Positions 4,020 through 42,088 of a stretch of 64,000 nt of DNA are shown here, in pieces; position 1 is the first letter of the stretch; each line of letters begins with the position of its first letter. The DNA is taken from the NCBI GenBank assembly GCA_018820855.1, contig JAHJNL010000025.1:1-64000 (forward strand). Reading direction: 5' to 3'. The translations under genes and the position numbers were made by a program. The notes under the pieces were generated by a model. The model saw only the letters and a list, made by a program, of their open reading frames with translations, did no database searches and was not told where the DNA came from. The stretch comes from Pseudomonadota bacterium. Its GTDB lineage: Bacteria; Desulfobacterota; Desulfobulbia; Desulfobulbales; Desulfocapsaceae.

Positions 4020-4081
4020 CTGAGGAACTCTCACATGAGACACCCTCAACCTGCATAAACCTGTACACATAACACAACAGA

Positions 4082-4282: not shown

Positions 4283-4283
4283 C

Positions 4284-5066: not shown

Positions 5067-5070
5067 GCGC

Positions 5071-17587: not shown

Positions 17588-17601
17588 TTTTGGATAATTT
17601 T

Positions 17602-24849: not shown

Positions 24850-27800
24850 ATGCCGACTTTTACCCCTTCTACCAGTTGGGACCCTGCTCTCAGAAGAAAG
24901 ATTTTCCTCCTGATCCTCGGCTGCGCTGTGGCCTGCTCCTCACTGATATTTCTCACTATCAAGGGGCAAAATCTATACCTCCTCAACACCCATAGACAGC
25001 ACACTACCCTGACAGCCAATCACATTAACTCCCTCCTGACCAGACAGTTGACCACAGCCAGCAAAAAGCTCAGCCAACAACCCGATGTCCTTGCCAGTGC
25101 CCTCCACCAGACCCCGCCTGACCATCCCCTCCTCACGACACAGCTGCGCGGCATACGGGATGTCCTCTCCGCCGCCATCGTCTATGTCATGGACAGAGAC
25201 GGCCTGGTTACCGCCTGTACTCCGACCAGCAGCAACGGGGATAATCTGACCGGCAACAACTACCGTTTCCGTCCCTATTTCACCAGTGCTATCGCAGGAA
25301 AAAGCACGTGCTATCCTGCCCTTGGCATAACGACCAACAAGCGTGGACTCTACTTCAGCTCACCGATCATTGGCAACAACGGACAGCCTGTGGGTGTAGC
25401 AGTAATCAAATCCGGGATGGAACAGATCACGGCCATCCTTGACGAGGCACGACCTGAAATTTCTCTTCTTGTCTCTGAGCAAAATATCATTTTTGCTGCT
25501 TCCAAGGCCAAGAAAGACTGGATTTATCACGCTGGAAGCCCTCTGTCACCCACAGAAAGAAAAGAAATCATCAAAAGTAAACAGTTTGGCAGCAGTCCCT
25601 TAAGTGAGCTGCCTGTGGATCTCAGTCAATCCTGGGTTTTTTTGGATGGCATTTCCTATCAGGTGGTTTCCGTCCCCATAGACCTTCCGGGATGGTCTCT
25701 CAGCACACTGAAAAAAAAGCAACCACTCTATCCGCTTGCATCCACTGTTGTTCTCGTTTTTTCCCTTTTCCTGACCTACCTTCTGGTCATGAACCTGATC
25801 GCAGCCAGCACCAGGAAACAGCTGAAAAGCGGAATAGCAGCAGAGATCGAACAACGAAAAAACGCACAGGCCCGGCTGCAGGAGAGTGAAAACCGTTACC
25901 GGACTCTCTTTGAAAACTCGCAGGACGCCAACCTCCTCATCGACACACCATATATCATAGACTGCAATGAAGCGGCCCTTCGGCTCTTTGGCTATGACGA
26001 TAAGGAGGAACTGCTGCAGAGAGATCCCGCAAAACTTTCTCCTCCCCTGCAGGAGGATGGCAGCAAATCCAGGAAGAAAGCAGAAGAAATGATGAACACG
26101 GCCATTCGTAATGGGAGCCATAAGTTTCAGTGGCGTCATCTACACAAAGACGGATCACCCTTTTGGGCGGAAGTCTCCGTCACCACCATCTCTCTTCTCG
26201 ATAAAACACTCCTGCACACCATCATCCGTGATATCACCAAAAAGAAATATGAAGAGGAACAGCTTCAGCTCTATTTCCGTGCCGTCTCTCAATCCATTGA
26301 CGGTATATGTATCACCAATCTGCACGGGGTCATGCAATACACCAACCAGGCCTGGGACAGCATGCACGGATACAGAAGCGAGGAACAACTGGGAAAAAAT
26401 CTTTCAATCCATCATACCAACAAGCAGCTGGAAGAAGACCTCGCAAACATGCTGCAGGAAGTCATTCGGGTAGGTCATATGATCCAGATCATCGGCCACA
26501 GGAAAAAAGACACTGTGGAATTCCAAACCCTTACCAGTATCACAGCGCTGCTCGACAAGGAAGGAGATCCCTCTGGTTTTCTCGTCATTTCCCGTGATAT
26601 CAGCGAGAACATCGATATCGAGCAAAAATCACGGGTTCTGAGCCAGGCCGTGGAGCAGAATTTTGACGGGATAGTCCTCACAGATTTGGACGAAAGAGTC
26701 CTTCGCGCCAACGCGGCATGGGCCAACATGCATGGCTTCACTGACAAAGACAGTCTTATCGATCAACAGTTGACCATCTTCCATACCCCGGAACAGAACA
26801 AAAATGAGTTGACCCCTTTTCTCAGAAAGGTGTGGGAAAAAGGCCATCATTTTGCCGAAATAGGACACCTGCATCAGGACGGCAGCCTGTTTCCAACAGC
26901 CATGAATATCTCCCTGTTCAGGGACGAACAGGATGCTCCCATAGGTCTCCTGGTTACAGCCAGGGACATTTCCATGCAGAAGGACACGGAACAGTCTCTT
27001 ATCCGGGCCAAAGAAGAGGCTGAAGCAGCGAACCAGGCCAAAGGTGAATTTCTGGCAAACATGAGCCATGAAATCCGGACGCCCATGAACGGCATCATGG
27101 GCATGACCAGACTGCTCATGGACAGCCCGCTTGCTCCTGAACAGCAGAACCAGCTGCGGATGGTGCAATCTTCGGCAACACGACTCCTTGGCATAATCAA
27201 TGACATTCTCGACTTTTCCAAGATAGAGGCCGGAAAACTGCTTCTTGAAGAAGTTACATTCTCCCTTGAAGAAAAGCTCGACGAACTGTTTACCCTCATG
27301 GCCCAAAAGGCTGCCGAACGTCATATTGAACTGAAGAAACAGATTCCCGATGAAATCCCCACGCATCTCATCGGAGATCCATCCCGCCTGACACAGATTC
27401 TGATCAATCTGGTCAACAATGGATTGAAGTTTACAGAAAACGGATCGGTTTCAATCAATATTACCCTTGAAGAATCAACGCAGAGCGACTGCCTTCTCCG
27501 TTTTGCTATTCAGGACACGGGAATTGGGATTCCAAAGGAAAAACAGGCAATTATTTTCCAATCTTTTTCTCAGGCCGACACCTCCCATACCAGAAAATAT
27601 GGCGGAACCGGACTCGGGCTCACCATCTCCTCTCAACTCTGCCGACTGATGGGGGGAGAAATCGGTCTTGAAAGTGAAGAGGGCACAGGGGCAACCTTTT
27701 GGTTTACCAGTCGTTTCAAAATTCCCCTGAATACACACAAAAAAGAGGACAGCAACCTGGGGACCTTTGTCCAGAGCGGTCTCAGCCGCCAGGAAATACT

Positions 27801-28542
27801 CCAAGGGATGAGAATTCTGCTGGCCGAAGATGAATTCATCAATATGACTCTGGCCCTTGCCCTGCTCAATCAGGAAGGACTTCAGGTCACCACGGCTGTC
27901 AATGGCCGTGAGGCTGTGGAGTGCTTCCGCAAAGGGTCTTTTGATGCCATACTGATGGATATCCAGATGCCGGAATTGGATGGTTACCAGGCCACGGCTG
28001 CCATCCGCGCCCACGAAAAGCTCCATGCCGGCCATGTTCCCATCATCGCCATGACAGCCCATGCCATGCAGGGCGATCGGGAAAAATGTCTTGCCTCAGG
28101 CATGGATGACTATATCAGTAAACCCCTTGATCCGGAAACCATGTTCCTGGTCATTGAGCGACAGCTTGTCAACAGTGTACTGGTGGCTGACGATCAACCT
28201 GTAAGCCGAACCATCGCCGCCAAAATTTTCATGGACCTGGGGTGGCAGGTCACCCTTGCGGAAAATGGAAAACAGGCCCGCTACGAGTGTACCCGCTCCC
28301 AGTTTGATCTGATTTTCATGGATATCCAGATGTCAGATATAGACGGCATGGAAACAACAGAGCAGATCAGAAAACGGGAGCAGAAAACAGGAAAACATAC
28401 CAGTATCATTGCCCTCACGGTCCTGTCTGAAAACAAGGATCGGCAGAAATGGCTGGATGCCGGCATGGATGCCTTTCTTGAAAAGCCTATTACTGCAGCA
28501 AAGATCCAGGAAACCCTTGAAAAGCTCTCAATAACACAGTAA
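24850..28542 (+). CDS. Membrane hybrid histidine kinase with Cache, three PAS and two receiver domains
   Basis: A 1,230-residue sensor. Order: membrane segment (about 17-40), periplasmic Cache-type domain (about 45-285; IVYVMDRDGLVTACT, FRPYFTSAIAGKS, GLYFSSPI), second membrane segment (about 295-318), three PAS/PAC units (about 345-470, 475-595, 600-725), HisKA with the phospho-His in FLANMSHEIRTPMNGIMG, HATPase (LVNNGLKFT, DTGIGIPKE, GGTGLGLTI), then two C-terminal receivers with acceptor Asp in LMDIQMPELDG and FMDIQMSDIDG. It probably senses a small molecule outside the cytoplasm. No HPt or output regulator is adjacent. The gene lies between the glycan and ABC loci and could control either; this is not shown. 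Confidence 0.92.
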   Translation: MPTFTPSTSWDPALRRKIFLLILGCAVACSSLIFLTIKGQNLYLLNTHRQHTTLTANHINSLLTRQLTTASKKLSQQPDVLASALHQTPPDHPLLTTQLRGIRDVLSAAIVYVMDRDGLVTACTPTSSNGDNLTGNNYRFRPYFTSAIAGKSTCYPALGITTNKRGLYFSSPIIGNNGQPVGVAVIKSGMEQITAILDEARPEISLLVSEQNIIFAASKAKKDWIYHAGSPLSPTERKEIIKSKQFGSSPLSELPVDLSQSWVFLDGISYQVVSVPIDLPGWSLSTLKKKQPLYPLASTVVLVFSLFLTYLLVMNLIAASTRKQLKSGIAAEIEQRKNAQARLQESENRYRTLFENSQDANLLIDTPYIIDCNEAALRLFGYDDKEELLQRDPAKLSPPLQEDGSKSRKKAEEMMNTAIRNGSHKFQWRHLHKDGSPFWAEVSVTTISLLDKTLLHTIIRDITKKKYEEEQLQLYFRAVSQSIDGICITNLHGVMQYTNQAWDSMHGYRSEEQLGKNLSIHHTNKQLEEDLANMLQEVIRVGHMIQIIGHRKKDTVEFQTLTSITALLDKEGDPSGFLVISRDISENIDIEQKSRVLSQAVEQNFDGIVLTDLDERVLRANAAWANMHGFTDKDSLIDQQLTIFHTPEQNKNELTPFLRKVWEKGHHFAEIGHLHQDGSLFPTAMNISLFRDEQDAPIGLLVTARDISMQKDTEQSLIRAKEEAEAANQAKGEFLANMSHEIRTPMNGIMGMTRLLMDSPLAPEQQNQLRMVQSSATRLLGIINDILDFSKIEAGKLLLEEVTFSLEEKLDELFTLMAQKAAERHIELKKQIPDEIPTHLIGDPSRLTQILINLVNNGLKFTENGSVSINITLEESTQSDCLLRFAIQDTGIGIPKEKQAIIFQSFSQADTSHTRKYGGTGLGLTISSQLCRLMGGEIGLESEEGTGATFWFTSRFKIPLNTHKKEDSNLGTFVQSGLSRQEILQGMRILLAEDEFINMTLALALLNQEGLQVTTAVNGREAVECFRKGSFDAILMDIQMPELDGYQATAAIRAHEKLHAGHVPIIAMTAHAMQGDREKCLASGMDDYISKPLDPETMFLVIERQLVNSVLVADDQPVSRTIAAKIFMDLGWQVTLAENGKQARYECTRSQFDLIFMDIQMSDIDGMETTEQIRKREQKTGKHTSIIALTVLSENKDRQKWLDAGMDAFLEKPITAAKIQETLEKLSITQ

Positions 28543-28628
28543 GAAAATAGATGTTTTGAGAATCTTTCTCTCACGGGTATTGGAATCAACAAAATGTCTG
28601 GAATTTTTTGCAGCAGAGGATCAGACTC

Positions 28629-29279
28629 ATGAGACGTCTCATCGTGTTGCCCTGGAAAAAATCGGTTGAAATTGCCTACAAATCCATTCGGGCACGTTTC
28701 TTTCGCTCCCTGGTAACCACCTTGACCCTGGTCCTGGCCGTCTCTTTTCTCTCCTTCAGCCAGGTGAGCATCGACATTGCTGATAAAATGCTGGCAACGG
28801 GTGACCCTTCACTCTGTCAGATGCTGATGCGCTGCGGCTATGATATCCTTCCCGGTGATACCAGCCTTGCCGCATCTCCCAAGCAACGCTGGATCATCAC
28901 CCTTTCTCTGCTTGTCTGTGTTGTGGGAATCATCAACGCACAGCTGATGTCAGTCACGGAACGATTTCGGGAGATCGGCACCATGAAATGCCTGGGCGCC
29001 CTTGATCGGTTCATTGTCCGACTCTTTGTCATGGAGGCAGCCATGCAGGGTTTTGCAGGTGCCTCATTCGGAGCAGTATTGGGAGGAATTTCCGCCTTCC
29101 TTGCCGCCCTTTTCCGTTTCGGCCCTGACACCATCAGCCTTTTTCCCTGGCAGGCCATCTTTGTTTCTGTCTCCACAGCTTTTGTTACCGGTATCGGTTT
29201 GAGCCTGCTCGGTGTCCTCTATCCGGCAATTATCGCGGCACGTATGCAACCGGTGGAAGCCATGCGGGTGGAACAATAA
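28629..29279 (+). CDS. Minimal FtsX-like ABC permease
   Basis: A 216-residue inner-membrane protein with the FtsX/MacB permease core of four helices: the first near residues 22-44, then three at the C-terminus. The conserved ERFREIGTMKCLGA segment contacts the ATPase, and the family's PVEAMR ending is present. The large periplasmic domain of MacB is almost absent (about 40 residues). The ATG at 28629 has GAGGA eight bases upstream and is preferred over the TTG at 28608. The next gene encodes the matching ATPase, and a much larger FtsX permease follows, so the pair could form a heterodimeric membrane unit. Confidence 0.87.
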   Translation: MRRLIVLPWKKSVEIAYKSIRARFFRSLVTTLTLVLAVSFLSFSQVSIDIADKMLATGDPSLCQMLMRCGYDILPGDTSLAASPKQRWIITLSLLVCVVGIINAQLMSVTERFREIGTMKCLGALDRFIVRLFVMEAAMQGFAGASFGAVLGGISAFLAALFRFGPDTISLFPWQAIFVSVSTAFVTGIGLSLLGVLYPAIIAARMQPVEAMRVEQ

Positions 29280-29517
29280 GACAGGTTTCAGATAACACAG
29301 GTTACGTCTCAAGCAACGGGAAAGGCATATTTGTCAAACAACGCAGCTGGAGTTTGGGAATCGACTAACCATCTTATGCAAATGCGAATCTGCCAACTTA
29401 CCTTAAAATTCACGACAAAAAGCATTCAGACAGACATGCCCACTGATCACATGGTTTATATGTTATATCATTATACTCTACCAGAAACCTTGAGCACTCT
29501 CTTAACGAGGCCTGACA

Positions 29518-30246
29518 ATGTCTGAAAAACTTATCGTCCGCGTCACAGGAGTCACTAAAGATTTTGACCTGGGAAAGATCGTGGTCAAGGTCCTGAAAGG
29601 CATTGATCTTGAAATCGAAACCGGAAAATATGTCTCCATCATGGGCCCTTCAGGATCAGGAAAATCCACTCTTTTCAATATGATCGGCGGCCTGGACAAA
29701 CCCACTCAGGGCAAGGTCTTTATCGACGAGGTGGACATTGCCCAACTCGATGCCTATGAACTGGCATGGTTACGCTGCCGAAAAATCGGTTACATCTTCC
29801 AGACCTTCAATCTGATCCCGGTCATGACAGCCCTTGAAAATGTCACCCTTCCCATGACCTTTGCCGGAACACCAAACGAAGCTGCCGTGCACCGGGGAAT
29901 GAAGCTCCTCAGTCAGGTCGGACTTGAAGGAAGACACGGACATAAACCGGCAGAACTCTCCGGCGGCCAACAGCAACGAGTGGCCGTGGCCAGAGCTCTA
30001 GCCAACAATCCATCCATCATCCTCGCCGATGAACCCACCGGCAACCTGGATCTCTCCACCGGAGAAGAGATTATCTCCCTGTTAAAACAACTCAGCCAGG
30101 AACAGGGAACAACTGTTATCTCCGCCACCCATGACTTCAAGATGCTGAACGTCTCAGACCAGGTGATCTGGATACGCGATGGGCGTGTGGACAAGATACA
30201 GGAACGAGCTGAACTGGAAATCCACACTGGAGGAATGAGCAGCTGA
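29518..30246 (+). CDS. ABC transporter ATP-binding protein, LolD/MacB type
   Basis: A 242-residue ATPase. Walker A is GPSGSGKST, the Q-loop is IFQTFNLIP, the signature is LSGGQQQR, Walker B is ILADEPTGNLD, and the H-loop His is in SATHDFKML. The DEPTGNLD and Q-loop forms are typical of the LolD/MacB/FtsE group, which drives mechanotransmission across the membrane rather than classic substrate import. It lies between the two FtsX-like permeases. Confidence 0.94.
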   Translation: MSEKLIVRVTGVTKDFDLGKIVVKVLKGIDLEIETGKYVSIMGPSGSGKSTLFNMIGGLDKPTQGKVFIDEVDIAQLDAYELAWLRCRKIGYIFQTFNLIPVMTALENVTLPMTFAGTPNEAAVHRGMKLLSQVGLEGRHGHKPAELSGGQQQRVAVARALANNPSIILADEPTGNLDLSTGEEIISLLKQLSQEQGTTVISATHDFKMLNVSDQVIWIRDGRVDKIQERAELEIHTGGMSS

Positions 30247-30275
30247 GCTTCTGCATAAGCTGCTTGCTGACGCCC

Positions 30276-33200
30276 ATGTCCCTCTTCCTACCCTCCTTGT
30301 TCAGGATCATCGCCCCTCTTCTTCTGATCCTGACTGTCAACTCCTCCTGGGCAGCCGCCTCCCCCCTGCTCTCTTTACAAGAACAGACAAGCAGGCTCAG
30401 CAGTTATGCAGAGAGAACCACAGGCAGTGAAGGATGCAGGAGTGGTGCGTCTTTTATCCGGGAGCAATTTCTAGCCATGGGGCTGACTGCCGAGACCTAC
30501 AGTTTTCCTGTCTCAGTTCGGCAGATAACAGGTGCCAGTCTGCAGGTAGGAGAAAAAAGCGTTCCCCTCAATAATTTAGTCTATAACGCCATTACTCCAG
30601 AGGCCACCAATGGAAAACTGAGTGGTCCTCTGTACTATGTCGGGTCTGGGAAATGGTCGGAAGTGCAAGGGGCACGGATCGACAAGGCCATCATCCTCAT
30701 AGATGCCGATTCCGGTCAAAACTGGCAGCAATTGGCATCGCTTGGTGCACAGGCCATTATCTATCTCAACCGGGATGGACGCCGATCGAAATACCTCTTC
30801 CAGGAAAAGGAAGAACTGACCCCCATTCAACTGCCCTGTTTTTGGATGGAAAAAGAAGAGTTCCTGCAGATCTTTCCTGCTCTTACGTCCCTCAAACCGG
30901 GACTTCTCCTCTCTAAGAGTGTGACCCTCTCCTCCTCGATTCACTGGCAGGAGATCATGGCCGAGAACATCTATGCCCTGATCCCCGGTTCCGATCCAGA
31001 GTTAAAAAAAGAGCTCTTGCTTCTTGAGGCCTTCTATGACAGTTCCGCATTTGTCGCGGGCCGTGCTCCTGGCGCAGACGAGGCAGCCTCCATTGCCACC
31101 CTGCTGCATACAGCTCACAACCTGCAGCAGCACCCTCCTGCGCGATCAGTACTCCTGGTGGCCACCAGCGGCCACAGCCAATCCCTCGCAGGTCTGCGGG
31201 ATCTCATCTGGAGCATCAACAGCAAATCAAAAACGTTACGAGAACAAAAGAAACAGCTCAAAACCTCTTTAGATAACACCGAGAAAAATCTGAAAATCCT
31301 GGAAGGTCTCAGCTGGCCGCTGCAGAAAGATGAGGCACGTGACAAAATCCTTGCCCAGGCCATGGCTGACCATCTTAAGCTTTCTGTGGATTCCGTTTCC
31401 AGGGATCTGATCAGCCTCCGCTTACAACAGGACAACAGTAGCGCCGGCAAAGAGGCGATCAGAAAACTATCCAAAACCCGCCTCCTCTATCGACGCATTG
31501 GCTGGCGCAGCTCTTTTCACGATATGGGGAAAGAGGAAACAAAACTCTTTCAAGAGGCCATCCCCCCGGCCACCAAAAGCAACGAAAACAAAAAACAAGA
31601 AATCAAGACCCACCTGAAGGCCCTGAAGAGCGCCCACGAGTTCAGAGAATTGGTCAATGAATATGATGTGGCCGCCATGGTCTCGTTGCATCTTTCCAGC
31701 CATGGGAACGGCCTGGGGGCATTTCACCAGGGTTTTCTTTACAATCTGAAGGCTGGAGTCAACCGAACCGGAATTTATTCGGTAGTGGCCGATCTCCTCG
31801 ATGAAGCTGCAGCCAACAGTTCCAGCAACACTCCCTATATCAACACCCTCCGTCCCAGTCGTCTCCGCTCCTGGGACTCCTGGTTTCTCGATCAGCCTCC
31901 ACTGGGCGGAGAAGTCACCTCCCTTGCCGGCTTTCTCGGCATCAGTTTAGTCAGCACCGGAGATGCTCGCTCATCCTGGGGAACCCCTTGGGACACCGCG
32001 CAAAACATCAACTGGACAAACCTTGAAAATCAGGCGCGTCTTATCAACGATATGATCCTGGCCATGGCCGGTAGCGCAAAGCTGCATTCCGGCAAACTCC
32101 CCCGCGAAGGTTTTGCAACCGTTAGCGGACGTGCCAATCTCCTCCTTCAGGGCGAGCTCTTCGCCGACTATCCTGCGGCGAAGACCACCCTGCTTGCCTA
32201 TCAGGGCATGCAAAAATATTACACCACTGTGGATTCAGCCGGAACATTTCAGATCAAAGGCGTAGCAGACAAAAAGCATGTCCTGGACAAGGTCATCATC
32301 GAAGGCTATCGCTTTGATGAGGAAACAGGACAGGTCCTCTGGGCCATTGATAAAAAAGAGACCGGAAAAAATAATTACCGCCTGAAGATCCGTAAGCAGG
32401 AAGTCAAGACTGACCTCATCCTCTTCAGCTGCAAAGAGACCACCATCTTTGGCCTGCTCGAACCCCGTAACTTTCAGTACCTGACGAAAATAGACCTTCT
32501 GGACGGTCGCCGCGATGCCCCGCCTCAGCATTACTGGTACAGCCGTATCGACACACGCAGTTCCACCATGGCCTCCATCTATACAGAACCGGGAACCTGG
32601 CTCAAGGCCACCCTGTCCGACAACGTTCTCACCCGTAAGATGATCCTCACCAATGGCACCCCGAAAAACCCCATGGGTTTCGGTTTTGCGGTGAACCAGT
32701 ATAATGCCATTCACAACACGGTCTACCAGACTGCCCGCGATATCTGGACACTCCTTGCCCCAAGGATTGAAAATCTGGAGAGCCACGGCATCTTTGACGG
32801 CAAAATCAACGAACTCAAGGCACGTGGCATGAATGCCCTGCACAGGGCCGAGTCCAGCCTGGCAGAGTATGACTACGAAACCTTCAGCAATGCTGCCTCA
32901 GAATCTCTGGCCCTGGCAGACCGGGTCTACGTCCAGGTGGAAAAAACGCAGAAGGATGTCCTCTTCGGAGTACTCTTCTACATTGCCCTGTTTGTTCCCT
33001 TTGCCTTCTGCATGGAACGTTTTCTTTTTAATTTTGCGAACATCTATAAACGTATCATAGCCTTCAGTGGAATCCTGCTCATCCTCATCGCTGTCATCCG
33101 CCAGGTCCATCCCGCCTTTCAACTGGCATACAGCCCCACAGTGGTCATTCTCGCCTTCTTTATCATCGGCTTGTCGCTGATGGTCAGCCTCATTATCTTT

Positions 33201-35099
33201 TTCCGCTTTGAAGAAGAAATGATACTCCTGCAACGCCGGGCCAGTCATAAACGTCCTGCCGAAATCAGTCACTGGAAGGCCTTTACCGCTGCTTTTTTTC
33301 TTGGCGTTTCCAACCTGCGGCGCAGACGAATCCGTACCGTTCTCACCTGTCTGACTCTCATCATTCTCACCTTTACCATCATGAGTTTTACCACGGTAAA
33401 ATCAGGAAAACGCCAAAGCAGGCTTTTTTTCCTGGAAAGAGCTCCCTATCAGGGACTGCTCCTGAAAAAAGTCGACTGGCGAAGCCTGCCTGTGGAAGCG
33501 GTAAGCATTCTTGTGGACGGATTTCAAGATGCGACTGGTATCGCTCCCCGTATCTGGCTTGAAGCAAAAGAGGCCACCCAGGCCGTACATGTTCCGCTGC
33601 AGCACAACGAGAACAATGCTGAGCTGCAGGGACTGATTGGACTCTCACCCTCTGAAGCAGAGGTCACCGGGCTCGACAGGCTCCTCACTGCAGGACGCTG
33701 GTTCACCAGTGATGACCGCTTGGCTATCATCCTGGAGCAGAATATGGCCAATGCACTCGGGGTGCGAGCCAACGGCACTGAAAAAATAAAACTCTGGGGC
33801 CAGGACTTTACCGTGATCGGCAGTTTTGCCGGAACCTCTTTCGATCAAACCCTGGACCTTGACGGTGAACCCCTTACCCCGGTCACCTTTCCGGAGGAAT
33901 CAGGGACAGAGATCACCGAGGTGGAGCAGGAGGCAATAGAATCAGGAGATGACATCCGTTCCTTTCAAGGCCGCTACCGTCACATTCCCGCCTCACAGAT
34001 AGCCATTATTCCGGCGACTACTCTTCTTACCATGGGAGGCAAGCTGAAGAATCTGGCGGTTCTCCCCCAGGAAAATGAGTCCATCAGTGGCACTGCCGAA
34101 AGATTGGTGGACCGCTTCAGTATGGCTATCTTTGCCGGAGAAAAAGACGGTGTATGGCTCTACAACCAGAGTGACGCAATACAATACAGCGGATTACCCA
34201 ACATCGTGATCCCACTCCTCATCTCCATCTTTATTGTCCTCAACACCATGATCAGCTCCGTCTACGAGCGTAAAAACGAGATTGCAATCTACACTTCAGT
34301 TGGACTTGCCCCCTCCCATGTCTCCTTTCTCTTTGTGGCCGAGGCCCTGGCCCTGGCCGTCATATCCGTGGTCATGGGCTACCTGTTCGCCCAGGTATCG
34401 GCCTCACTCTTTGCCGATACCAGACTCTGGGCAGGACTCACAGTCAACTACTCATCCATGGCAGGTGTTGCTGCCATGATTCTGGTTATCGGAGTAGTCC
34501 TGCTTTCTGTAATTTACCCGTCCCGGCTGGCAGCCCAGATCGCCATTCCTGATGTCAACAGCAGCTTTACCCTGCCGAAACCCGTTAACAACCGAATCAC
34601 CGTCACTCTGCCCTTTTTTATGAAATATGACGAGCATGATTCCATCGGAGGCTTCATCTACAGCTATTTCATCTCCCACCAGGACGTGTCCCACGGAATT
34701 TTTTCCACGGGACCGGTGGACCTGATCTTCAGCTGCTGCAATATAGACCAGATGAAGAAACTGGTACAAGATGCTGAAAAGCCACACGAAATCCACTGCA
34801 CTTATATCCGGTCAAAAGTCTGGCTTGCACCTTTCGACTTTGGTATCATGCAGTGGGTTGATATCCAGTTCTGTCCGGTTGAAGGAGATACAACCTACCT
34901 GGAAATCAAGGTCACGATGGAACGCCGATCCGGAGAGGAACAGGTCTGGCAGCGGATCAACACCTCCTTTCTTCATAACTTACGGAAACAGTTGCTGATC
35001 TGGCGCTCCATTGACGATGCAAGTCATAAACACTTTTCTGAACAGTTCAGGCAGATTGCCGCAAAGAGTCAGGCGGCAGGAGTAGAGGACCATGCATAG
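30276..35099 (+). CDS. Fusion of degenerate M28-peptidase-like ectodomain and FtsX permease
   Basis: About 1,607 residues. Order: signal/anchor (5-30); M28 aminopeptidase-like domain with PA-like insert (about 35-600); beta-rich domain (about 615-800); helical stretch; three membrane helices (about 895-985); FtsX helix 1 (about 1020-1045); MacB-like periplasmic domain (to about 1305); three more FtsX helices including SSVYERKNEIAIYTSVGL and VIYPSRLAAQ; and a cytoplasmic domain of about 170 residues. M28 metal ligands are not kept: the HYDS position reads FYDS, GAnDD reads GADEA, and the catalytic EE reads GHS. A non-catalytic binding role is therefore inferred. The ATG at 30276 is preferred over the TTG at 30264; neither has a clear ribosome-binding site. 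Confidence 0.85.
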   Translation: MSLFLPSLFRIIAPLLLILTVNSSWAAASPLLSLQEQTSRLSSYAERTTGSEGCRSGASFIREQFLAMGLTAETYSFPVSVRQITGASLQVGEKSVPLNNLVYNAITPEATNGKLSGPLYYVGSGKWSEVQGARIDKAIILIDADSGQNWQQLASLGAQAIIYLNRDGRRSKYLFQEKEELTPIQLPCFWMEKEEFLQIFPALTSLKPGLLLSKSVTLSSSIHWQEIMAENIYALIPGSDPELKKELLLLEAFYDSSAFVAGRAPGADEAASIATLLHTAHNLQQHPPARSVLLVATSGHSQSLAGLRDLIWSINSKSKTLREQKKQLKTSLDNTEKNLKILEGLSWPLQKDEARDKILAQAMADHLKLSVDSVSRDLISLRLQQDNSSAGKEAIRKLSKTRLLYRRIGWRSSFHDMGKEETKLFQEAIPPATKSNENKKQEIKTHLKALKSAHEFRELVNEYDVAAMVSLHLSSHGNGLGAFHQGFLYNLKAGVNRTGIYSVVADLLDEAAANSSSNTPYINTLRPSRLRSWDSWFLDQPPLGGEVTSLAGFLGISLVSTGDARSSWGTPWDTAQNINWTNLENQARLINDMILAMAGSAKLHSGKLPREGFATVSGRANLLLQGELFADYPAAKTTLLAYQGMQKYYTTVDSAGTFQIKGVADKKHVLDKVIIEGYRFDEETGQVLWAIDKKETGKNNYRLKIRKQEVKTDLILFSCKETTIFGLLEPRNFQYLTKIDLLDGRRDAPPQHYWYSRIDTRSSTMASIYTEPGTWLKATLSDNVLTRKMILTNGTPKNPMGFGFAVNQYNAIHNTVYQTARDIWTLLAPRIENLESHGIFDGKINELKARGMNALHRAESSLAEYDYETFSNAASESLALADRVYVQVEKTQKDVLFGVLFYIALFVPFAFCMERFLFNFANIYKRIIAFSGILLILIAVIRQVHPAFQLAYSPTVVILAFFIIGLSLMVSLIIFFRFEEEMILLQRRASHKRPAEISHWKAFTAAFFLGVSNLRRRRIRTVLTCLTLIILTFTIMSFTTVKSGKRQSRLFFLERAPYQGLLLKKVDWRSLPVEAVSILVDGFQDATGIAPRIWLEAKEATQAVHVPLQHNENNAELQGLIGLSPSEAEVTGLDRLLTAGRWFTSDDRLAIILEQNMANALGVRANGTEKIKLWGQDFTVIGSFAGTSFDQTLDLDGEPLTPVTFPEESGTEITEVEQEAIESGDDIRSFQGRYRHIPASQIAIIPATTLLTMGGKLKNLAVLPQENESISGTAERLVDRFSMAIFAGEKDGVWLYNQSDAIQYSGLPNIVIPLLISIFIVLNTMISSVYERKNEIAIYTSVGLAPSHVSFLFVAEALALAVISVVMGYLFAQVSASLFADTRLWAGLTVNYSSMAGVAAMILVIGVVLLSVIYPSRLAAQIAIPDVNSSFTLPKPVNNRITVTLPFFMKYDEHDSIGGFIYSYFISHQDVSHGIFSTGPVDLIFSCCNIDQMKKLVQDAEKPHEIHCTYIRSKVWLAPFDFGIMQWVDIQFCPVEGDTTYLEIKVTMERRSGEEQVWQRINTSFLHNLRKQLLIWRSIDDASHKHFSEQFRQIAAKSQAAGVEDHA

Positions 35100-35143
35100 C
35101 AGGAAGTTCTCAGCACCACAGATCCCCCAAGGGCACTATTATC

Positions 35144-37141
35144 ATGCATGAGCAACAGAAAACAGGATCAGTCATACGGCTGCGGGCCATTGTCACAGGA
35201 ATAGTGCTGGCCGTTAGCATCTGCCTGCTCACTCCGTTTAACAACATCTATCAGCAGGCAACTCCCCTCGGCGGTGGCCATTTTCCCCTGGCACCCTTTT
35301 TCATTTTTCTTCTTCTCACCATCCTTATTGCCATAACCACTAAGCTCTTTCGTTCCAGGTCCCCATTTCTCTCCGGAAACGAGCTCTTGATTATCTGGAT
35401 AGAAATGGTCATCGGCTCAGGAATCGCCTATACAGGGCTTGCCCGCACCTTGCTCCTCAATCTCACGGCTCCTATCCATTTCGCCTCTGTCAGTAACCAA
35501 TGGGAAAAGAGCCTGCACAGCATCCTCCCCTCCGGAATCACGCCAAGCGACAGCGGAGCCATCGAAATGCTGTATACCGGTCTACCCGGCGGACGTGATA
35601 TGAACTGGCTGGAAGTGGCCTCGGCGATCCCCTGGCAGCCATGGCTGACACCCCTTATGCTCTGGGGCTGTTTTATTCTCTTATCCTACTGTTTCATGCT
35701 CTTTGTCATCAATCTCCTCTCTCGTCAGTGGATCCATAATGAACGGATAAACTTCCCCCTGCTTCGTGTTCCAGAGATGCTGAGCAGATCCCTTGACGAT
35801 GGAAAGCTTGGCTCATTTTTCAGCAACCGCTTTCTCCTGGCCGGTCTCCTCTTGCCGATTGGTCTCCATTTTCTTAACGGTTTTCACTTTTATTATCCCT
35901 CCGTCCCCCAGTTACCGACCTTGATCCTTGCCGGCCCCTACTTCCCGGATCACGGTCTCTTCTCCGGCTTCCAGAAACTCAAGATATATATCTATCCGGC
36001 TTTTATCGGCTTTGCCTTTCTTACTTCACGACAGATCTCCTTCAGCTTCTGGTTCTTCTTTATTCTCGGCGGACTGTTATTCGGCATCCTTGGCCTCCTG
36101 GGTTATACCATACCCGCCTCCGAGCTCGGCATCACCTTTGGCCCTACGCTGGCCAGACCTGAAGAGACACAGATGATCGGGGCCTACGGGATCTTCTTTT
36201 TCTTTCTCCTCTGGCTGGCAAGAGCACACCTCATGGAGGTGACCAGAGAATCTCTTTTCCTTGTAAAACCCAGTAAGTCACGAACTGAATGGTTTGATGT
36301 CCGTCTTTCTTTCTGGGGAAGCATCTTCTGTTTCGGGGCTCTGCTCTTCTGGGCAACCTGGCTGGGCATGAGTCTGACCACAGCCTTCTTTTTCCTCTGT
36401 GTTGCTTTTATGATCATGCTGGTGGCAACCCGGATTATCTGCCAAGGCGGCCTTGCCTACTTCACCCTCCCCGCCGCCCCCATGGACGTCTTATTGGCCA
36501 CAGGCGGGACCAAACTCTTCAGCGGGGTGAACGGCCTGATCTGCGGAATGGCTCAGAAGGCACTCTTTGTCGACCTCCGTGAATCCCTGATGCCCTCACT
36601 TCTGCACGCCCGCAAACTGAGTCATGGCAGCAGTACCGGACTCCTTATTTTTTCCGGACTTTTTTTCACCATTCTTGCAAGTCTCGTGGCCTCAATTCTT
36701 GCTATGATGACCCTCTACTATCGCTACGGCATCCGGGAATTACAGATGGAATGGGCAAGCCGGACCACGGTGACGGTCTTTGAAAATGTCCACAGGCTGC
36801 TCACTGCTCCCACGGAAACAGGGAGCTGGATCACCTTTTTTGCCATTACCGGAGCTGTGATCATGCTGATCCTGGTCATCTGTTACCACCGCTTTTACTG
36901 GTGGCCCATTCACCCCTTGGGCTATCTGACTGCCTACAGTTCAGCAATGCGCATCCTCTGGGTCAGTTTCTTTGTCGGCTGGGCCTGTAATGCGCTCTGC
37001 ATGCGCTACGGTGGTGTCTCTCTTTTTAAAAAGGTTCAGTTTTTCTTTATCGGCCTCATCATCGGTGACTTTCTGATGGGAGGAGGCTGGGCTATAGTTG
37101 GACTTTTCACAGATTCCGGTTACCAGGTACTTCCTGACTGA
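35144..37141 (+). CDS. DUF6785-type polytopic membrane protein
   Basis: A 665-residue inner-membrane protein with about 14-16 hydrophobic segments and no signal peptide. Recognisable stretches are LTPFNNIYQQATPLGGGHFP near the start, RINFPLLRVPEML, and ICQGGLAYFTLPAAPMDVLLATGG. I assign it to the DUF6785/DUF6784 group by memory of these features, a family with no known function that is distantly OPT-like. It starts 44 bases after the FtsX fusion and 92 bases before another large polytopic protein, so all three are likely co-transcribed. Confidence 0.72.
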   Translation: MHEQQKTGSVIRLRAIVTGIVLAVSICLLTPFNNIYQQATPLGGGHFPLAPFFIFLLLTILIAITTKLFRSRSPFLSGNELLIIWIEMVIGSGIAYTGLARTLLLNLTAPIHFASVSNQWEKSLHSILPSGITPSDSGAIEMLYTGLPGGRDMNWLEVASAIPWQPWLTPLMLWGCFILLSYCFMLFVINLLSRQWIHNERINFPLLRVPEMLSRSLDDGKLGSFFSNRFLLAGLLLPIGLHFLNGFHFYYPSVPQLPTLILAGPYFPDHGLFSGFQKLKIYIYPAFIGFAFLTSRQISFSFWFFFILGGLLFGILGLLGYTIPASELGITFGPTLARPEETQMIGAYGIFFFFLLWLARAHLMEVTRESLFLVKPSKSRTEWFDVRLSFWGSIFCFGALLFWATWLGMSLTTAFFFLCVAFMIMLVATRIICQGGLAYFTLPAAPMDVLLATGGTKLFSGVNGLICGMAQKALFVDLRESLMPSLLHARKLSHGSSTGLLIFSGLFFTILASLVASILAMMTLYYRYGIRELQMEWASRTTVTVFENVHRLLTAPTETGSWITFFAITGAVIMLILVICYHRFYWWPIHPLGYLTAYSSAMRILWVSFFVGWACNALCMRYGGVSLFKKVQFFFIGLIIGDFLMGGGWAIVGLFTDSGYQVLPD

Positions 37142-37233
37142 CAAAAGCTTCGGGGAGAAAGGCGGAAGACTGAGGGCAAGAAAATCCGTTCTTGTTTCAG
37201 CCTTTCCCCCTAATCACCTAATAATTTGATATT

Positions 37234-39192
37234 ATGTATGATGACAAGGAATTAAAAGAATATCGCGATCTCCTTAAACCTCCCGACCATTTTGAAGAGG
37301 GGTTTGACTGGAAGACCATTGTCGGAGCCGTTTTCATAGGCTTCCTGATGATGCCGGGCTCCATGTATCTGCAGCTGGTGATTGGCCAGGGCATCGGACC
37401 GGCAGCGCGCTGGGTAACGATCATCCTCTTTGCCGAGGTGGCCAAGAGGGCGCATTCCGAGCTGAAACAGCAGGAGATCTTTCTCCTCTACTACATGGCC
37501 GGTGCTGCCCTTGCCTCCCCCTTTTCCGGACTCCTCTGGAATCAGTATCTGGTCCAGTCCGATGCGGCAAGGATGCTGGGTCTGACCGAGTTTATCCCGT
37601 CCTGGGTAGCCCCTGGCGCGGATTCCCAATCCATGGTGGAGAGGACCTTTTTCCACAGGGACTGGCTGGTCCCCATCCTCCTCCTGGTCGGGGCTCAAAT
37701 CATTCAGCGTATTGACCATTTCGGTCTCGGCTATGCCCTGTATCGCATCACCTCCGATGTGGAAAAGCTTCCCTTTCCCATGGCCCCGGTGGGTGCTCTG
37801 GGCACCATGGCACTTGCTGAATCCACAGAAGAAAAGAAAAAGAGCTGGAAATGGCGAGTCTTTTCCATAGGCGGAGTCATCGGCCTGGTCTTTGGTGCCT
37901 TCTATGTCCTCCTCCCCATTGCCTCAGGTCTGATTTTCACCGAACCCATCCGCCTCATCCCCATCCCCTGGATTGAACTGACCGAACACACTGAAGACCT
38001 TCTGCCGGCAGTGGCAACAGGTATCCAGCTGGATCTGGGGCTGGTTTTTATCGGTATGGTACTGCCGTTTTGGGCAGTCATCGGCGGACTCATCGGACTT
38101 ATCATCACCATTATCCTCAACCCGATTCTGTATACCCAAGGCATCCTGCAACGCTGGCATCCCGGCATGGCCACCGTTGACACGGTCTTTGCCAATAACT
38201 TTGATTTTTACATGAGCTTTGGTATCGGCCTGGGATTGGCCATTGGCGTCATCGGGGTCTGGTCCGTATTCAGATCCTACCGCAGCACGAAAGAACATAT
38301 GGGAACCCTGAAAGATCTCTTTGAACCGCCTGCCGGGCGCGGAGATTTTAATTTCTGGATCTCCATTGCCATCTACTTTTTTTCAACCCTTGCCTATGTG
38401 GGACTCTGCGTCTGGCTGGTCCCTTCCTTTCCCTGGATCTTTTTCCTGGCCTACGGCTTTATTTACACCCCCATTATCTCCTATATCACTGCCAGGATGG
38501 AGGGTATTGCCGGACAGTTTGTCAGCCTCCCCCTGGTGCGGGAAGCCAGTTTCATTGCAGGAGCACGCTTTTTCGGCTACCAGGGGCTGGAAATCTGGTA
38601 TGCCCCCATCCCCATTCACAACTATGGTGAGGCCACCGTGCAGTTCAGACAGATTGAACTTACCGGGACCTCTATCCGAGGGATTATCAAGGCGGAGATC
38701 GTGGTCTTTCCCATCGTCATGGTGGCCAGCCTGCTCTTTTCCCAATTTATCTGGCGACTGGCTCCCATCCCCTCGAGCAGCTACCCTTACGCTCAGGAAT
38801 TGTGGCATCTCCAGGCCCTCAATACCCTGCTGATGCAGACATCTACCCTGGAAGGAAACTCCATGTTCTACCAGGCCCTGAATGCAGGCACAGTTTTCTC
38901 CGGTCTTGGTTTTGGCCTGGTCATGTATTTTATCCTCAGCCTCTTTGGCCTCCCCATTCTTCTCATCTATGGAGTGGTCAGGGGACTCGGTCAATCCACC
39001 CCGCACGGCCTGATCCTGGAAGTCCTGGGTGCTTTTCTCGGCCGCTACTTTTTCCTCAAACGCTACGGCCCCATGTGGCGGCAATATGCCCCGGTACTCC
39101 TGGCAGGATTTTCCTGTGGTATGGGCCTCACCGGCATGCTGGCCATGGGTCTGGCCCTTATCATGAAATCTCTGGGCCATATGGCCTATTGA
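37234..39192 (+). CDS. OPT-like 'peptide transporter' membrane protein
   Basis: A 652-residue membrane protein with about 14-16 helices. It is similar in plan to its upstream neighbour and starts with a charged cytoplasmic head (KEYRDLLKPPDHFEEGF). Segments such as GFLMMPGSMYLQLVIGQGIGPAARWVTIILFAEVAKR and FPMAPVGALGTMALAE recall the oligopeptide-transporter (OPT) superfamily, for which bacterial members are often labelled peptide transporters. The substrate is unproven. It is the last gene of the locus; a 21-bp perfect inverted repeat begins at the base after its stop codon. Confidence 0.75.
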   Translation: MYDDKELKEYRDLLKPPDHFEEGFDWKTIVGAVFIGFLMMPGSMYLQLVIGQGIGPAARWVTIILFAEVAKRAHSELKQQEIFLLYYMAGAALASPFSGLLWNQYLVQSDAARMLGLTEFIPSWVAPGADSQSMVERTFFHRDWLVPILLLVGAQIIQRIDHFGLGYALYRITSDVEKLPFPMAPVGALGTMALAESTEEKKKSWKWRVFSIGGVIGLVFGAFYVLLPIASGLIFTEPIRLIPIPWIELTEHTEDLLPAVATGIQLDLGLVFIGMVLPFWAVIGGLIGLIITIILNPILYTQGILQRWHPGMATVDTVFANNFDFYMSFGIGLGLAIGVIGVWSVFRSYRSTKEHMGTLKDLFEPPAGRGDFNFWISIAIYFFSTLAYVGLCVWLVPSFPWIFFLAYGFIYTPIISYITARMEGIAGQFVSLPLVREASFIAGARFFGYQGLEIWYAPIPIHNYGEATVQFRQIELTGTSIRGIIKAEIVVFPIVMVASLLFSQFIWRLAPIPSSSYPYAQELWHLQALNTLLMQTSTLEGNSMFYQALNAGTVFSGLGFGLVMYFILSLFGLPILLIYGVVRGLGQSTPHGLILEVLGAFLGRYFFLKRYGPMWRQYAPVLLAGFSCGMGLTGMLAMGLALIMKSLGHMAY

Positions 39193-39465: not shown

Positions 39466-41004
39466 ATGTCTTTCCAGAAGATTTTCGGAACTCTGCTAAA
39501 CAAAAAGCAGAAACGGGTCGATATTACTCTTATGACAGTCGCAACTCAGCATAGCCACGGCCAAAACGAATCACTGCCCACTTTTTCCTTCAAAGCCGGT
39601 TCCCTGCCAATTGCCGTTAAACTGGCACTGATTATTACCACAGTTATCATCGTCGGTATGGGGCTGCTCAGTCTCTTTATCCTGGGCAATCAAAGCACCG
39701 TTTTTGACCAGCAGACAGATGCCTATGCATCAGCTCTCGGCGACCAACTCTCCACAGCAGCCATCGAACCGGTCCTGGCCGGTGACCTACAGGCCATAGA
39801 TCAACTTACCAGCAACCTGGTAGACAACGAAGGGATAGAAGGAGTTGCCATATTCTCGGACCAGTCAAAGATGCTTTCCTCAATCGGTATCAACCCGGAA
39901 CAGGCTCCTCCCCTTATTCTTCCAGAACAGCCGCTGTACTGGCATATCGGCGAAACCAACAAGATCGGCCTCACTTCCTATGTCCGCGAAATCACCTTCC
40001 GGGACCTGACCGTTGGCTACTGTCTTATTACCTTCGACCGTTCGTTCATGAACACCGCTTACGGCAACACCATTCGCACAATTTCCGCAATCACCGCCCT
40101 CATGGTTCTCTTAGGCATCATTGTCGCTGCCTTTCTCAGCAAACAACTCTCCCGCCCCATTAAACATCTTGTTGAGGGTAGCCAAGAAATTTCCCGCGGA
40201 AATTACCGATATCGTTTTCAAGAACGTCGCCAGGATGAGCTGGGTCAGCTCATGGGATCCCTGAACACCATGACTGAAGGGTTACTTCGCAAGGAACAGG
40301 TGGAACAGACATTTTCCCGCTATGTCTCACCCAATGTGGCCTGTGCCCTGATGAACAACCTGGAAAAGATCCATCTCGGCGGCAGTCATGTGGAAGCCAC
40401 GGTACTCTTTGCCGACATCTCTGGTTTTACGACCCTCAGTGAAGGATTGGAACCCACAGCAATTAACAGTCTGCTCAACGAATATTTCACTCTCATTGAT
40501 CAGATTGCCGGGAAGCATGGAGGCCATATTGACAAATACATCGGAGATTGCGCCATGATCCTCTTTGGCGTCCCTCTCCATGACAAAGAACATGGTATCA
40601 ATGGGGTCAGCTGTGGTGTAGAGATTCAACAAGTGATTAAAGAGTACAATCTCACCCGTAAGAAACAGCGAAAGATTACCGTTGAATTCAGTATAGGCAT
40701 TAACAGTGGAACCATGCTGGCCGGAAATATGGGGTCAGAAAGACGAATGGAATATACGGTGGTCGGCAATGCCGTCAACCTTGCCTCCCGCCTCTCTTCC
40801 ATTGCCACCGCCGGTGAGGTGATCGTCACCAGGGAATTGCACGACACCCTGGGGCTTGCCGCACTCTTCGAAACCTACCAGTCCGGCACCATAGAACTGC
40901 GGGGAAAGACGACACCGGTAGAAGTCTGGCACATTGGACACCAGCTGCGAATGATCTCATCCCCCGAACTCTTTGACATTCATACTCCAAGCATAGTTCA
41001 CTGA
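39466..41004 (+). CDS. Membrane class III adenylate cyclase with HAMP domain
   Basis: A 512-residue protein predicted to make cAMP. After an N-terminal tail it has a membrane helix (about 50-72), a periplasmic domain of about 140 residues, a second helix (about 208-228), a HAMP domain (LSRPIKHLVEGSQEIS) and the cyclase domain (about 300-495). Metal-binding Asp residues are in FADISGFT and YIGDCAMILFG. The purine-selecting pair reads Lys (DKYIGD) and Thr (EYTVVGN), as in class IIIb adenylate cyclases. Transition-state Asn and Arg are in NAVNLASRL. The start could instead be the ATG at 39532; neither has a good ribosome-binding site. The lipoprotein gene follows after seven bases. Confidence 0.88.
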   Translation: MSFQKIFGTLLNKKQKRVDITLMTVATQHSHGQNESLPTFSFKAGSLPIAVKLALIITTVIIVGMGLLSLFILGNQSTVFDQQTDAYASALGDQLSTAAIEPVLAGDLQAIDQLTSNLVDNEGIEGVAIFSDQSKMLSSIGINPEQAPPLILPEQPLYWHIGETNKIGLTSYVREITFRDLTVGYCLITFDRSFMNTAYGNTIRTISAITALMVLLGIIVAAFLSKQLSRPIKHLVEGSQEISRGNYRYRFQERRQDELGQLMGSLNTMTEGLLRKEQVEQTFSRYVSPNVACALMNNLEKIHLGGSHVEATVLFADISGFTTLSEGLEPTAINSLLNEYFTLIDQIAGKHGGHIDKYIGDCAMILFGVPLHDKEHGINGVSCGVEIQQVIKEYNLTRKKQRKITVEFSIGINSGTMLAGNMGSERRMEYTVVGNAVNLASRLSSIATAGEVIVTRELHDTLGLAALFETYQSGTIELRGKTTPVEVWHIGHQLRMISSPELFDIHTPSIVH

Positions 41005-41011
41005 TACAGTT

Positions 41012-42088
41012 ATGAAGTATTTCCTTCTTCTCATGCCCCTTTTGTTTCTGCATGGCTGCGCCCCTCTCGGTCATTTGGATTCCGGAGCAGATCGAGTTCA
41101 GCTGGTTGATCAATACCTTGCGGAACAGGACTACAGTAAAGCTCTTGCCCTTATTGCCAACACTTCCAAAGACGACCCCCAGGCCCTGGATCTTAAAAAA
41201 AGACGAAAAATAATCCTCGACCAGCTGCAAACATTCGAACAGCAGACAATAGCCCTTGCCCTCAAACAGGAACGCAGCAACGACTGGCCGGGAGCCAAGC
41301 TTACCTATGAAGAAGCACTGAAAAAACTCAACATATCCAAGACGCTGGATGAGGAACGAGAGGCCATGCTCAAGCGTTTTCAGAACAGAATGAAGGCATT
41401 GGAGTATGAAGAACTCATTGTGACGGGGGAGTGGCTCAGGAAAAAACTTCCCCTGCTGCACAGCCTCCACGCAGGCGATCCGGGAGATATGATCATTAAA
41501 TGGAGATTGTCCCGTACTGAAAATGAGGCCAGGGAAACTGCCCAGGAATTGCTCAAATGTGGTGAACAAATGCTCGCCGAGAGCAATCTTGCCATGGCTC
41601 AGCGCATCCTGCCCCTGGCTGCGGAACTGGACCCTGAACTGGATACGGAAGCAGCAGTCAGTCAGCTGGAGAATAGGCTGACTGCCAGAAAAGACAAAAA
41701 GCTGAAGGACAGGCGCCGGGCCGCCCAAAAAAAAGACGAAGAAGCAATTGAGGCATTCAACAGGGCCATGGCCCACGGCAAGCTGTCCGAGGCCCGTCTC
41801 TATCTCGCTCACCTCAGTCCGACAATACAAACATCCGTGGCCGCTGAACTGATGCAAGAGCGCCTGGAAAGAGCCATATCCGAGTATATCCTGGAAGAGC
41901 TTTCCGTTGGAGACTCTTTTTATCGGGCAGGGGAATACCAACAGGCGATCAAGGCCTGGCAGAATGTTCTCACACTCGAACCTGACAATGAAACAGTCCA
42001 AAGCAAACTGAAAAGGGCAGAAAAGGTGGTTGAGAAACTCACCACCTTGCAGAAACGTCAGAAAAAATCAGTCATTGAGTTGCAATAA
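41012..42088 (+). CDS. TPR-containing lipoprotein
   Basis: A 358-residue lipoprotein. The signal peptide ends in the lipobox LHGC, with Cys16 as the lipidation site. The mature part is almost wholly helical, with tetratricopeptide-like repeats at both ends (YLAEQDYSKALALIA; YRAGEYQQAIKAWQNVLTLEPDNETVQSKL) and a charged coiled-coil centre. It is probably a periplasmic scaffold. It lies seven bases after the cyclase gene and is likely co-transcribed, which suggests it may work with the cyclase's periplasmic domain; this is inference. Confidence 0.87.
   Translation: MKYFLLLMPLLFLHGCAPLGHLDSGADRVQLVDQYLAEQDYSKALALIANTSKDDPQALDLKKRRKIILDQLQTFEQQTIALALKQERSNDWPGAKLTYEEALKKLNISKTLDEEREAMLKRFQNRMKALEYEELIVTGEWLRKKLPLLHSLHAGDPGDMIIKWRLSRTENEARETAQELLKCGEQMLAESNLAMAQRILPLAAELDPELDTEAAVSQLENRLTARKDKKLKDRRRAAQKKDEEAIEAFNRAMAHGKLSEARLYLAHLSPTIQTSVAAELMQERLERAISEYILEELSVGDSFYRAGEYQQAIKAWQNVLTLEPDNETVQSKLKRAEKVVEKLTTLQKRQKKSVIELQ

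Follow-up and report, generated by a model that had tools for sequence, protein, structure and literature searches.

A conserved five-gene membrane module linked to glycan genes in Desulfobacterota

The stretch of DNA analysed here (the window) comprises 64,000 nucleotides of contig JAHJNL010000025.1 (assembly GCA_018820855.1) from a member of the Desulfocapsaceae. Between positions 28608-39192 it carries five consecutive, co-directional long open reading frames on the + strand, here called genes A to E, which form one system. The link of A-E to a set of neighbouring glycan genes is strong, and it is quite probable that the five genes serve a glycan pathway; the substrate, the direction of movement and the mechanical role are what we infer. 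We propose, with a probability of about 0.5, that Desulfobacterota possess an undescribed envelope-glycan pathway of which A-E forms the inner-membrane and periplasmic part, operating by the mechanism described below. Five poorly labelled membrane genes thereby become a defined module with a testable pathway.

The five genes as one unit

The five genes are as follows.

28608-29279, + strand: gene A, a minimal FtsX permease (FtsX PF02687, 61.1 bits, cut-off 25.5)
29518-30246, + strand: gene B, a LolD/MacB-type ATPase (ABC_tran, 1.3e-34)
30264-35099, + strand: gene C, a pseudo-M28/FtsX giant of 1611 amino acids (FtsX 43.4 bits, cut-off 25.5, at residues 1316-1426; Peptidase_M28 33.2 bits at residues 235-315)
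35144-37141, + strand: gene D, a DUF6785+DUF6784 protein (DUF6785 548 bits, DUF6784 123 bits)
37234-39192, + strand: gene E, a polytopic protein of no named family (no Pfam match at E<=1)

The distribution of these genes was followed in an evenly drawn set of 297 genomes of Desulfobacterota (the phylum sample) and in 146 genomes of the window's order, Desulfobulbales (the order sample). Locus counts are based on the best 80 of 158 E-encoding loci, and completeness was judged in the 47 of these in which 9.5 kb or more precede E. Cultured carriers of the locus include Desulfogranum marinum DSM 2058 (L069) and Desulfatibacillum alkenivorans (L098). Genomes and loci are cited by our labels (G and L). 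Beyond Desulfobacterota, the searches covered a plasmid collection, 14 control genomes and viral contigs. DUF6785 was found in 0/14 control genomes, no relatives of D were found in the viral contigs, and neither D nor E had a match in the plasmid collection.

All five genes occur together in 42 of the 47 loci. Neighbouring genes lie on the same strand without exception (A-B 51/51, B-C 53/53, C-D 59/59, D-E 75/75), with median gaps of 60, 29, 17 and 72 bp, respectively, and both gene order and strand are kept across orders. D (over its cut-off) and E were found in the identical 20 of the 297 genomes of the phylum sample, which span 12 families. A and C are both present in all 20, and B is present in 19/19 E-bearing genomes checked (G248 was left out). 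In 14 of the 20, A and C are contiguous with D-E, with two extra genes between C and D in G301. Contiguity is cut by a contig break in G276 and perhaps in G351, where D stands at a contig start. The genes lie apart in G216 (E on another contig), in G248 (about 12 kb from C to D), and in G390 and G429, where three contigs carry A alone, B-C and D-E. The last two genomes still hold A, B, C, D and E together with the glycan-associated genes GT28a, GT4a, GT28b and ABC2 introduced below.

Patristic distances, calculated from 20 genomes (19 for B and E), correlate at 0.96 for C-D, 0.94 for C-E and 0.91 for D-E, and GT28a correlates with each of C, D and E at 0.82. The corresponding values of C, D and E against seryl-tRNA synthetase are 0.27-0.43. 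Because of this co-occurrence, the conserved order and strand, and the correlated distances, A-E is regarded as one unit, as the original prediction, made by a model from the letters of the window, had supposed. Neither rare adjacency elsewhere nor unrelated phylogenies of D and E, which that prediction had named as speaking against a single system, was found. A chance neighbourhood is ruled out by co-occurrence and by the conservation of order and strand. It is hardly credible that A-E have no functional connection beyond a common operon. Some of the genes are separated in G390, G429, G216 and G248, but even these are among the 20/20 genomes that contain A, C, D and E, and the distance correlations among C, D and E reach 0.91-0.96.

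Horizontal spread was considered as the sole cause of this distribution and rejected, as the trees of E, C and GT28a share 10/16, 11/17 and 10/17 groupings with that of seryl-tRNA synthetase. Given this agreement and the 12 families, old inheritance with losses fits better, and the set may also have been transferred horizontally in places. A scan of the locus for promoter and terminator consensus sequences gave the same counts as shuffled sequence and was uninformative.

Predicted properties of the five proteins

Gene A starts with TTG at 28608, and an in-frame ATG at 28629 is plausible and may be the true start. Hydropathy indicates four hydrophobic stretches in its product, the first and second being separated by about 35 residues. 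The nearest NCBIfam models are LolC/E, with scores under the curated cut-offs. In B, the Walker A, signature, Walker B and H-loop motifs are all intact, and the best NCBIfam relatives are LolD, MacB and DarD, each under its cut-off (228.5 bits against the LolD model, where the equivalog cut-off is 307.75). With an FtsX domain in the permeases A and C and a LolD/MacB-like ATPase with its motifs in B, A-B-C is by predicted component make-up a type VII ATP-binding cassette (ABC) unit, in agreement with the LolD/MacB-type ABC system originally proposed. It shares these parts with LolCDE, MacAB-TolC, FtsEX-EnvC and YbbAP-TesA. In contrast to those systems, its two permeases are very unequal, since A has almost no loop after its first segment and C has an ectodomain of about 860 residues with a pseudo-peptidase and three extra hydrophobic segments, and the unit is tied to D-E and to glycosyltransferases.

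According to hydropathy, C begins with a signal-peptide-like start, followed by a periplasmic ectodomain with a degenerate M28 domain that extends to about residue 895, and then by three hydrophobic segments at 896-984. The permease part is MacB-like, with segments at 1022-1047 and in the FtsX region at 1305-1429, followed by a C-terminal domain; residues 1047-1305, between the first and second permease segments, may, by hydropathy, form a periplasmic domain. The FtsX part can be aligned to MacB, LolC and LolF chains. Residues 235-315 match peptidase M28 above the profile cut-off, but the metal-ligand and catalytic positions, which we take to be the His of the HxD motif and the Glu-Glu pair of canonical M28 enzymes, are lost in 29/29 homologues. 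Where M28 enzymes have the first metal-ligand His, these proteins have F, S, P or R, and none retains the Glu-Glu pair, G-H taking its place in 17 sequences. The columns were judged by eye in an alignment comprising 29 sequences, the others being 32-71% identical to the C of the window. The peptidase domain is thus predicted to be catalytically dead, and the degenerate peptidase noticed in the original prediction is borne out.

The AlphaFold2 model of D, built from a 49-sequence alignment, has a predicted local distance difference test score (pLDDT) of 88.9 and a predicted template modelling score of 0.90. In Foldseek, the sole match at E<=0.001 is barley YS1 (7wst, 7wsr; E 1e-7). VIA-align superposes the model on 7wsr with a Z of 22.7 over 555 residues (root-mean-square deviation 4.3, 11% identity), and the next entry after YS1 reaches a Z of 7.2 over 127 residues. 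YS1 is tied to the OPT family because four bacterial PF03169 proteins of the phylum match 7wsr at 8e-26. D is therefore confidently modelled with an OPT/YSL transporter fold. Against Pfam, it matches only DUF6785 and DUF6784 at E<=1 and has no PF03169 match, and its profile aligns weakly and out of register with four bacterial OPT proteins. D thus shares its overall fold with the OPT/YSL family (PF03169, barley YS1), and differs from it by its low identity, its own DUF6785/DUF6784 domains and a genomic context of glycan synthesis. For the DUF6785/DUF6784 families, the analysis supplies both a fold and a genomic context.

E belongs to no NCBIfam family. When 45 aligned homologues of E were compared with Pfam, the best match had an E-value of 0.1 and the matches were scattered over unrelated families; PF03169 matched 0/45 at E<=10. 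The G216 homologue, which is outside the 45, aligns with the C-terminal 115 positions of PF03169 (7.9e-4; 18.7 bits, cut-off 25.8), and the E profile shows a weak in-register match to the C-terminal end of the OPT profile (P 0.02). E may perhaps be a far relative of OPT, to which these weak matches point. Sequence searches of the PDB with the D and E profiles returned nothing of note. Of the two OPT-like proteins of the original prediction, D is supported by its fold and not by the OPT Pfam model, and E is weakly supported. D and E were also considered as duplicates, and this was rejected as no profile similarity was detectable, the E alignment having very low diversity.

Homologues of E in the phylum are 71-97% identical. 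Identity to the window's protein is 71-85% for E and 38-73% for seryl-tRNA synthetase, and E is higher in each of 19 genomes. This points to a strongly constrained function for E, which is named in neither Pfam nor NCBIfam.

The resemblance of A and B to the Lol system invites another reading, in which the glycosyltransferases make a lipid-linked oligosaccharide, D or E takes part in its transfer to a protein or lipoprotein, and A-B-C moves the modified lipoprotein in a LolCDE-like manner. LolD is the nearest NCBIfam model of B and LolC/E of A, but all of these scores are under the curated cut-offs, and the modelled fold of D is that of OPT, not of an oligosaccharide transferase. We consider such decoration very unlikely.

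Glycan genes that accompany the unit

The original prediction, which inferred a cell-envelope process, left out the glycan genes and the ABC2 context. That process gains a concrete identity through the upstream glycan set (17.5-24.6 kb) and the downstream ABC2 with its cyclic-nucleotide partner (42.1-45.2 kb), which are listed here together with an intervening kinase gene (GT, glycosyltransferase).

17590-18177, + strand: O-acetyltransferase-like protein (WbbJ-like NCBIfam match far under cut-off; no Pfam match)
18344-19540, + strand: GT28a, a MurG-like glycosyltransferase with a GT28 C-terminal domain, used as pathway marker
19537-20829, + strand: GT4a, a glycosyltransferase (best NCBIfam relative EpsE, under cut-off)
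20850-21965, + strand: GT4b, a glycosyltransferase
21949-22620, + strand: histidine phosphatase (a methyltransferase-like gene in its place in family f51)
22617-23789, + strand: GT28b, another MurG-like glycosyltransferase (immediately preceding A in several distant genomes)
23789-24583, + strand: polysaccharide-deacetylase-like protein (DUF2334 just under cut-off)
24850-28542, + strand: hybrid histidine kinase (dCache, PAS, two receiver domains)
42142-42759, - strand: cyclic-nucleotide-binding protein, adjoining ABC2
42650-45214, - strand: ABC2, an MsbA-like exporter with an insertion of about 220 residues (about residues 470-695) that splits its nucleotide-binding domain

In the phylum sample, GT28a (E<=1e-60) is present in 20/20 genomes with E and in 4/277 without it (24/297 in total). 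Outside the window's own genome, its identity in E-bearing genomes is 40-60%, lowest in G170; in the four E-negative genomes it is 37-39%, and none of them has C. In the order sample, C occurs in 19/146 genomes, and GT28a at E<=1e-150 accompanies it in 19/19 and is present in 1/127 genomes without C (G107), with two more weak matches. C is in pieces in G088 and G128, with one internal stop in G128. GT28b was found at E<=1.2e-56 in 14/14 E-bearing genomes tested, and 4/4 genomes without E gave only matches at E>=1e-25. Each of the 20 carrier genomes has GT28a, GT4a and GT28b besides A, C, D and E. GT28a presumably belongs to COG4671; DUF6785, DUF6784 and COG4671 are named in no paper found by our literature search.

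Desulfobulbales, family f51, and Desulfatibacillum and other genomes outside the order have the GT genes upstream of A. Most of the glycan-gene orthologues are found there in Desulfobulbales (e.g., L169-L172, L174-L179, L181 and L182) and also in G301, G180 and G247. The distant G181 and G370 have glycan genes upstream of A without the acetyltransferase, phosphatase and deacetylase, and GT28b alone is near A in G430, G326, G302, G349 and G411. GT4b is not constant and was not found near the other GTs in G247, G120, G061, G088 and G390. In the stretches covered in G412, G170, G216, G248, G351, G390 and G429, no glycan genes were seen near A-E. When unlinked, the glycan genes sit elsewhere, often in small groups such as GT28a-GT4a-(GT4b), or a phosphatase or methyltransferase with GT28b.

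A beta-barrel-like protein (16181-17521, weak Pfam match), encoded immediately before the glycan genes, is a candidate exit pore; partial homologues (28-38%) occupy the same position in eight other Desulfobulbales loci. A scan of 40 proteins of the window, the only part of the genome searched in this way, revealed no Wzx/Wzy, ABC-2-type permease or PCP/OPX family. The locus resembles the Wzx/Wzy, ABC-dependent (Wzm/Wzt, KpsMT) and synthase-dependent polysaccharide pathways in having several GTs, modification genes and an exporter, and differs from them, within the proteins scanned, in showing none of these families.

Among the 44 of the 80 loci with at least 8 kb after E, ABC2 follows E in 24 and was not seen in 20. 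Across all 80, it was found after E in 28, in 12 cases on the strand of E (10 within about 225 bp) and in 16 on the opposite strand at 1-5 kb. The cyclic-nucleotide-binding protein stands beside it in 25 of the 28, and ABC2 is perhaps a cyclic-nucleotide-controlled exporter. Whole-genome searches located ABC2 in 5/5 genomes tried (the E-bearing G351, G390, G429 and G248, plus G107). An adenylate/guanylate cyclase and a TPR protein are encoded directly after E at 39466-42088, an arrangement seen in close relatives only (L032, L034 and L044).

These signalling genes raise the question of control instead of transport. A-B-C would then be an FtsEX-like mechanotransmitter that recruits or activates periplasmic enzymes acting on glycan or cell wall, with D-E sensing or supplying a signal solute. 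Type VII units such as FtsEX are reported to carry out mechanical signalling, and the pseudo-enzyme domain of C would suit docking or sensing. The histidine kinase, which lies between the deacetylase and A, and the cyclase adjoin A-E, but they do so in close relatives only, and the constant D-E pair would be left unexplained, as FtsEX is not known to need a polytopic carrier pair. This reading is judged unlikely.

Outside the phylum, the plasmid collection contains 275 records matching GT28a and 264 matching GT28b, mostly from rhizobia and all below 60% identity; ten Escherichia plasmid records are among the GT28a matches. Mesorhizobium pWSM1497 carries GT28a, GT4a and GT28b, followed by a methyltransferase, ABC2, a cyclic-nucleotide protein, a metallohydrolase, a deacetylase and GT4b. 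In R. leguminosarum pRLN2, an ABC importer operon precedes GT28a-GT4a-GT28b-ABC2-cyclic-nucleotide protein. The GTs of S. meliloti pSymB lie beside an ABC importer operon with SBP_bac_5, a polysaccharide lyase and a nucleotide-sugar dehydrogenase. In Candidatus Manganitrophus, the deacetylase domain and GT28b form one fused protein, and the genes after it encode a further GT, an ABC exporter and an 'alginate export family' protein. SBP_bac_5 was confirmed with Pfam in S. meliloti only, and the R. leguminosarum operon was likened to it by annotation. One paper links two S. meliloti genes to K-polysaccharide (PMC5539429); their names could not be matched to the locus described here, and the link was not used.

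All four clusters contain homologues of GT28a, GT4a and GT28b. Two contain ABC2 and the cyclic-nucleotide protein, the ABC2 homologues on the two rhizobial plasmids being 26% identical over nearly the full length, and two contain a deacetylase. The window has the same GT28a, GT4a, GT28b, ABC2 and cyclic-nucleotide protein in one neighbourhood. In contrast to the window, the four clusters have no D or E and carry other transporters, either an ABC importer operon or an ABC exporter with the 'alginate export family' protein. From these comparisons of gene content, the GTs, and ABC2 in two rhizobia, resemble a more ancient glycan core that is combined with different transporters in other phyla, and A-E looks like the set joined to it in Desulfobacterota. 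On two rhizobial plasmids (L183 and L216), the importer operon lies directly upstream of GT28a and is a possible stand-in for A-E. Cyclases are annotated near rhizobial clusters too.

The rhizobial importers bear on a reading of the system as an uptake route, in which D-E would import an oligomer (a peptide, a glycan fragment or a metal chelate), A-B-C would help in its delivery, and the glycan genes would make, modify or recycle the ligand. D shares the fold of the iron-phytosiderophore importer YS1, the ectodomain of C matches an aminopeptidase-type family, and an SBP_bac_5 importer operon stands beside GT28a in S. meliloti, with a similarly annotated one in R. leguminosarum. Set against this, D has no OPT match at the sequence level, type VII ABC units are not known as importers, and no receptor or TonB family was found among the 40 window proteins to which the scan was confined. 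Uptake is quite unlikely on balance.

Proposed function in envelope-glycan assembly

In type VII units, ATP powers the movement of periplasmic parts, and the acceptors of GT28 enzymes are usually lipids. In the proposed envelope-glycan pathway, the MurG-like and GT4 enzymes would assemble a glycan on the cytoplasmic side, with a lipid as acceptor, and ABC2 would flip the lipid-linked product. D, with its OPT fold, and its constant partner E may form a carrier that acts late in the pathway on a polar part of the product or on a precursor; that the pair moves a pathway intermediate is roughly an even bet. A and C with two copies of B would constitute the type VII ABC machine and transmit the ATP-driven motion of the permeases to the ectodomain of C. 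The dead peptidase domain of C could act as the platform at which the product is bound or docked, drawn from the membrane and passed outward; the original prediction had this domain bind a substrate that D and E would move or sense. We suggest this extraction role for A-B-C by analogy, because of the two general properties given above and the precedent of YbbAP-TesA, a type VII ABC system that is proposed in PMC12646458 to pull hydrophobic molecules or lipids out of the membrane. It is a tentative assignment, at odds somewhat worse than even.

In its boldest form, the proposal is a new glycan translocation machine, in which an obligate OPT-fold carrier pair (D, probably with E) is coupled to an asymmetric type VII motor (A-B-C), with the pseudo-peptidase ectodomain as a glycan-handling arm, beside the cyclic-nucleotide-linked ABC2. 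This version is doubtful as a whole. We know of no polysaccharide or glycolipid pathway with OPT-fold carriers or a type VII motor. None turned up in our literature searches, and the broader searches found no paper on such a system, as far as titles and the beginnings of abstracts allow this to be judged. If the proposal is true, type VII ABC motors and OPT-fold carriers gain a role in the surface-glycan assembly of sulfate-reducing bacteria.

Several observations weigh against the envelope-glycan reading or the unity on which it is built. Five of the 47 loci are incomplete: L066 and L081 are without A, L109 and L110 have D-E only, and L089 has E only. The distances of B correlate less closely with those of C, D and E (0.72-0.84, with B-E lower at 0.72), and seryl-tRNA synthetase correlates with B and the GT genes at 0.54-0.68, so that the GT genes, unlike C, D and E, track it fairly. 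G170 forms a long branch in several trees (40% identity for GT28a, 34% for GT28b) and weighs on the correlations. The hypergeometric P values for co-occurrence with GT28a, 1.7e-27 in the phylum and 4.8e-21 in the order, are overstated, since the genomes are related. G107 has GT28a and ABC2 without an orthologue of C or A, and the rhizobial plasmids carry the core while D and E are absent from the plasmid collection. Finally, the AlphaFold2 model of E is poor (pLDDT 38), and OPT proteins of known role are importers, which fits poorly with export.

Farther from the module, the window encodes a 1010-residue protein with DUF7948 and SBBP beta-propeller repeats (48208-51240). A row of thiamine genes at 3195-6174 comprises ThiF with a ThiS-like domain, ThiG and a radical SAM protein with a BATS domain.

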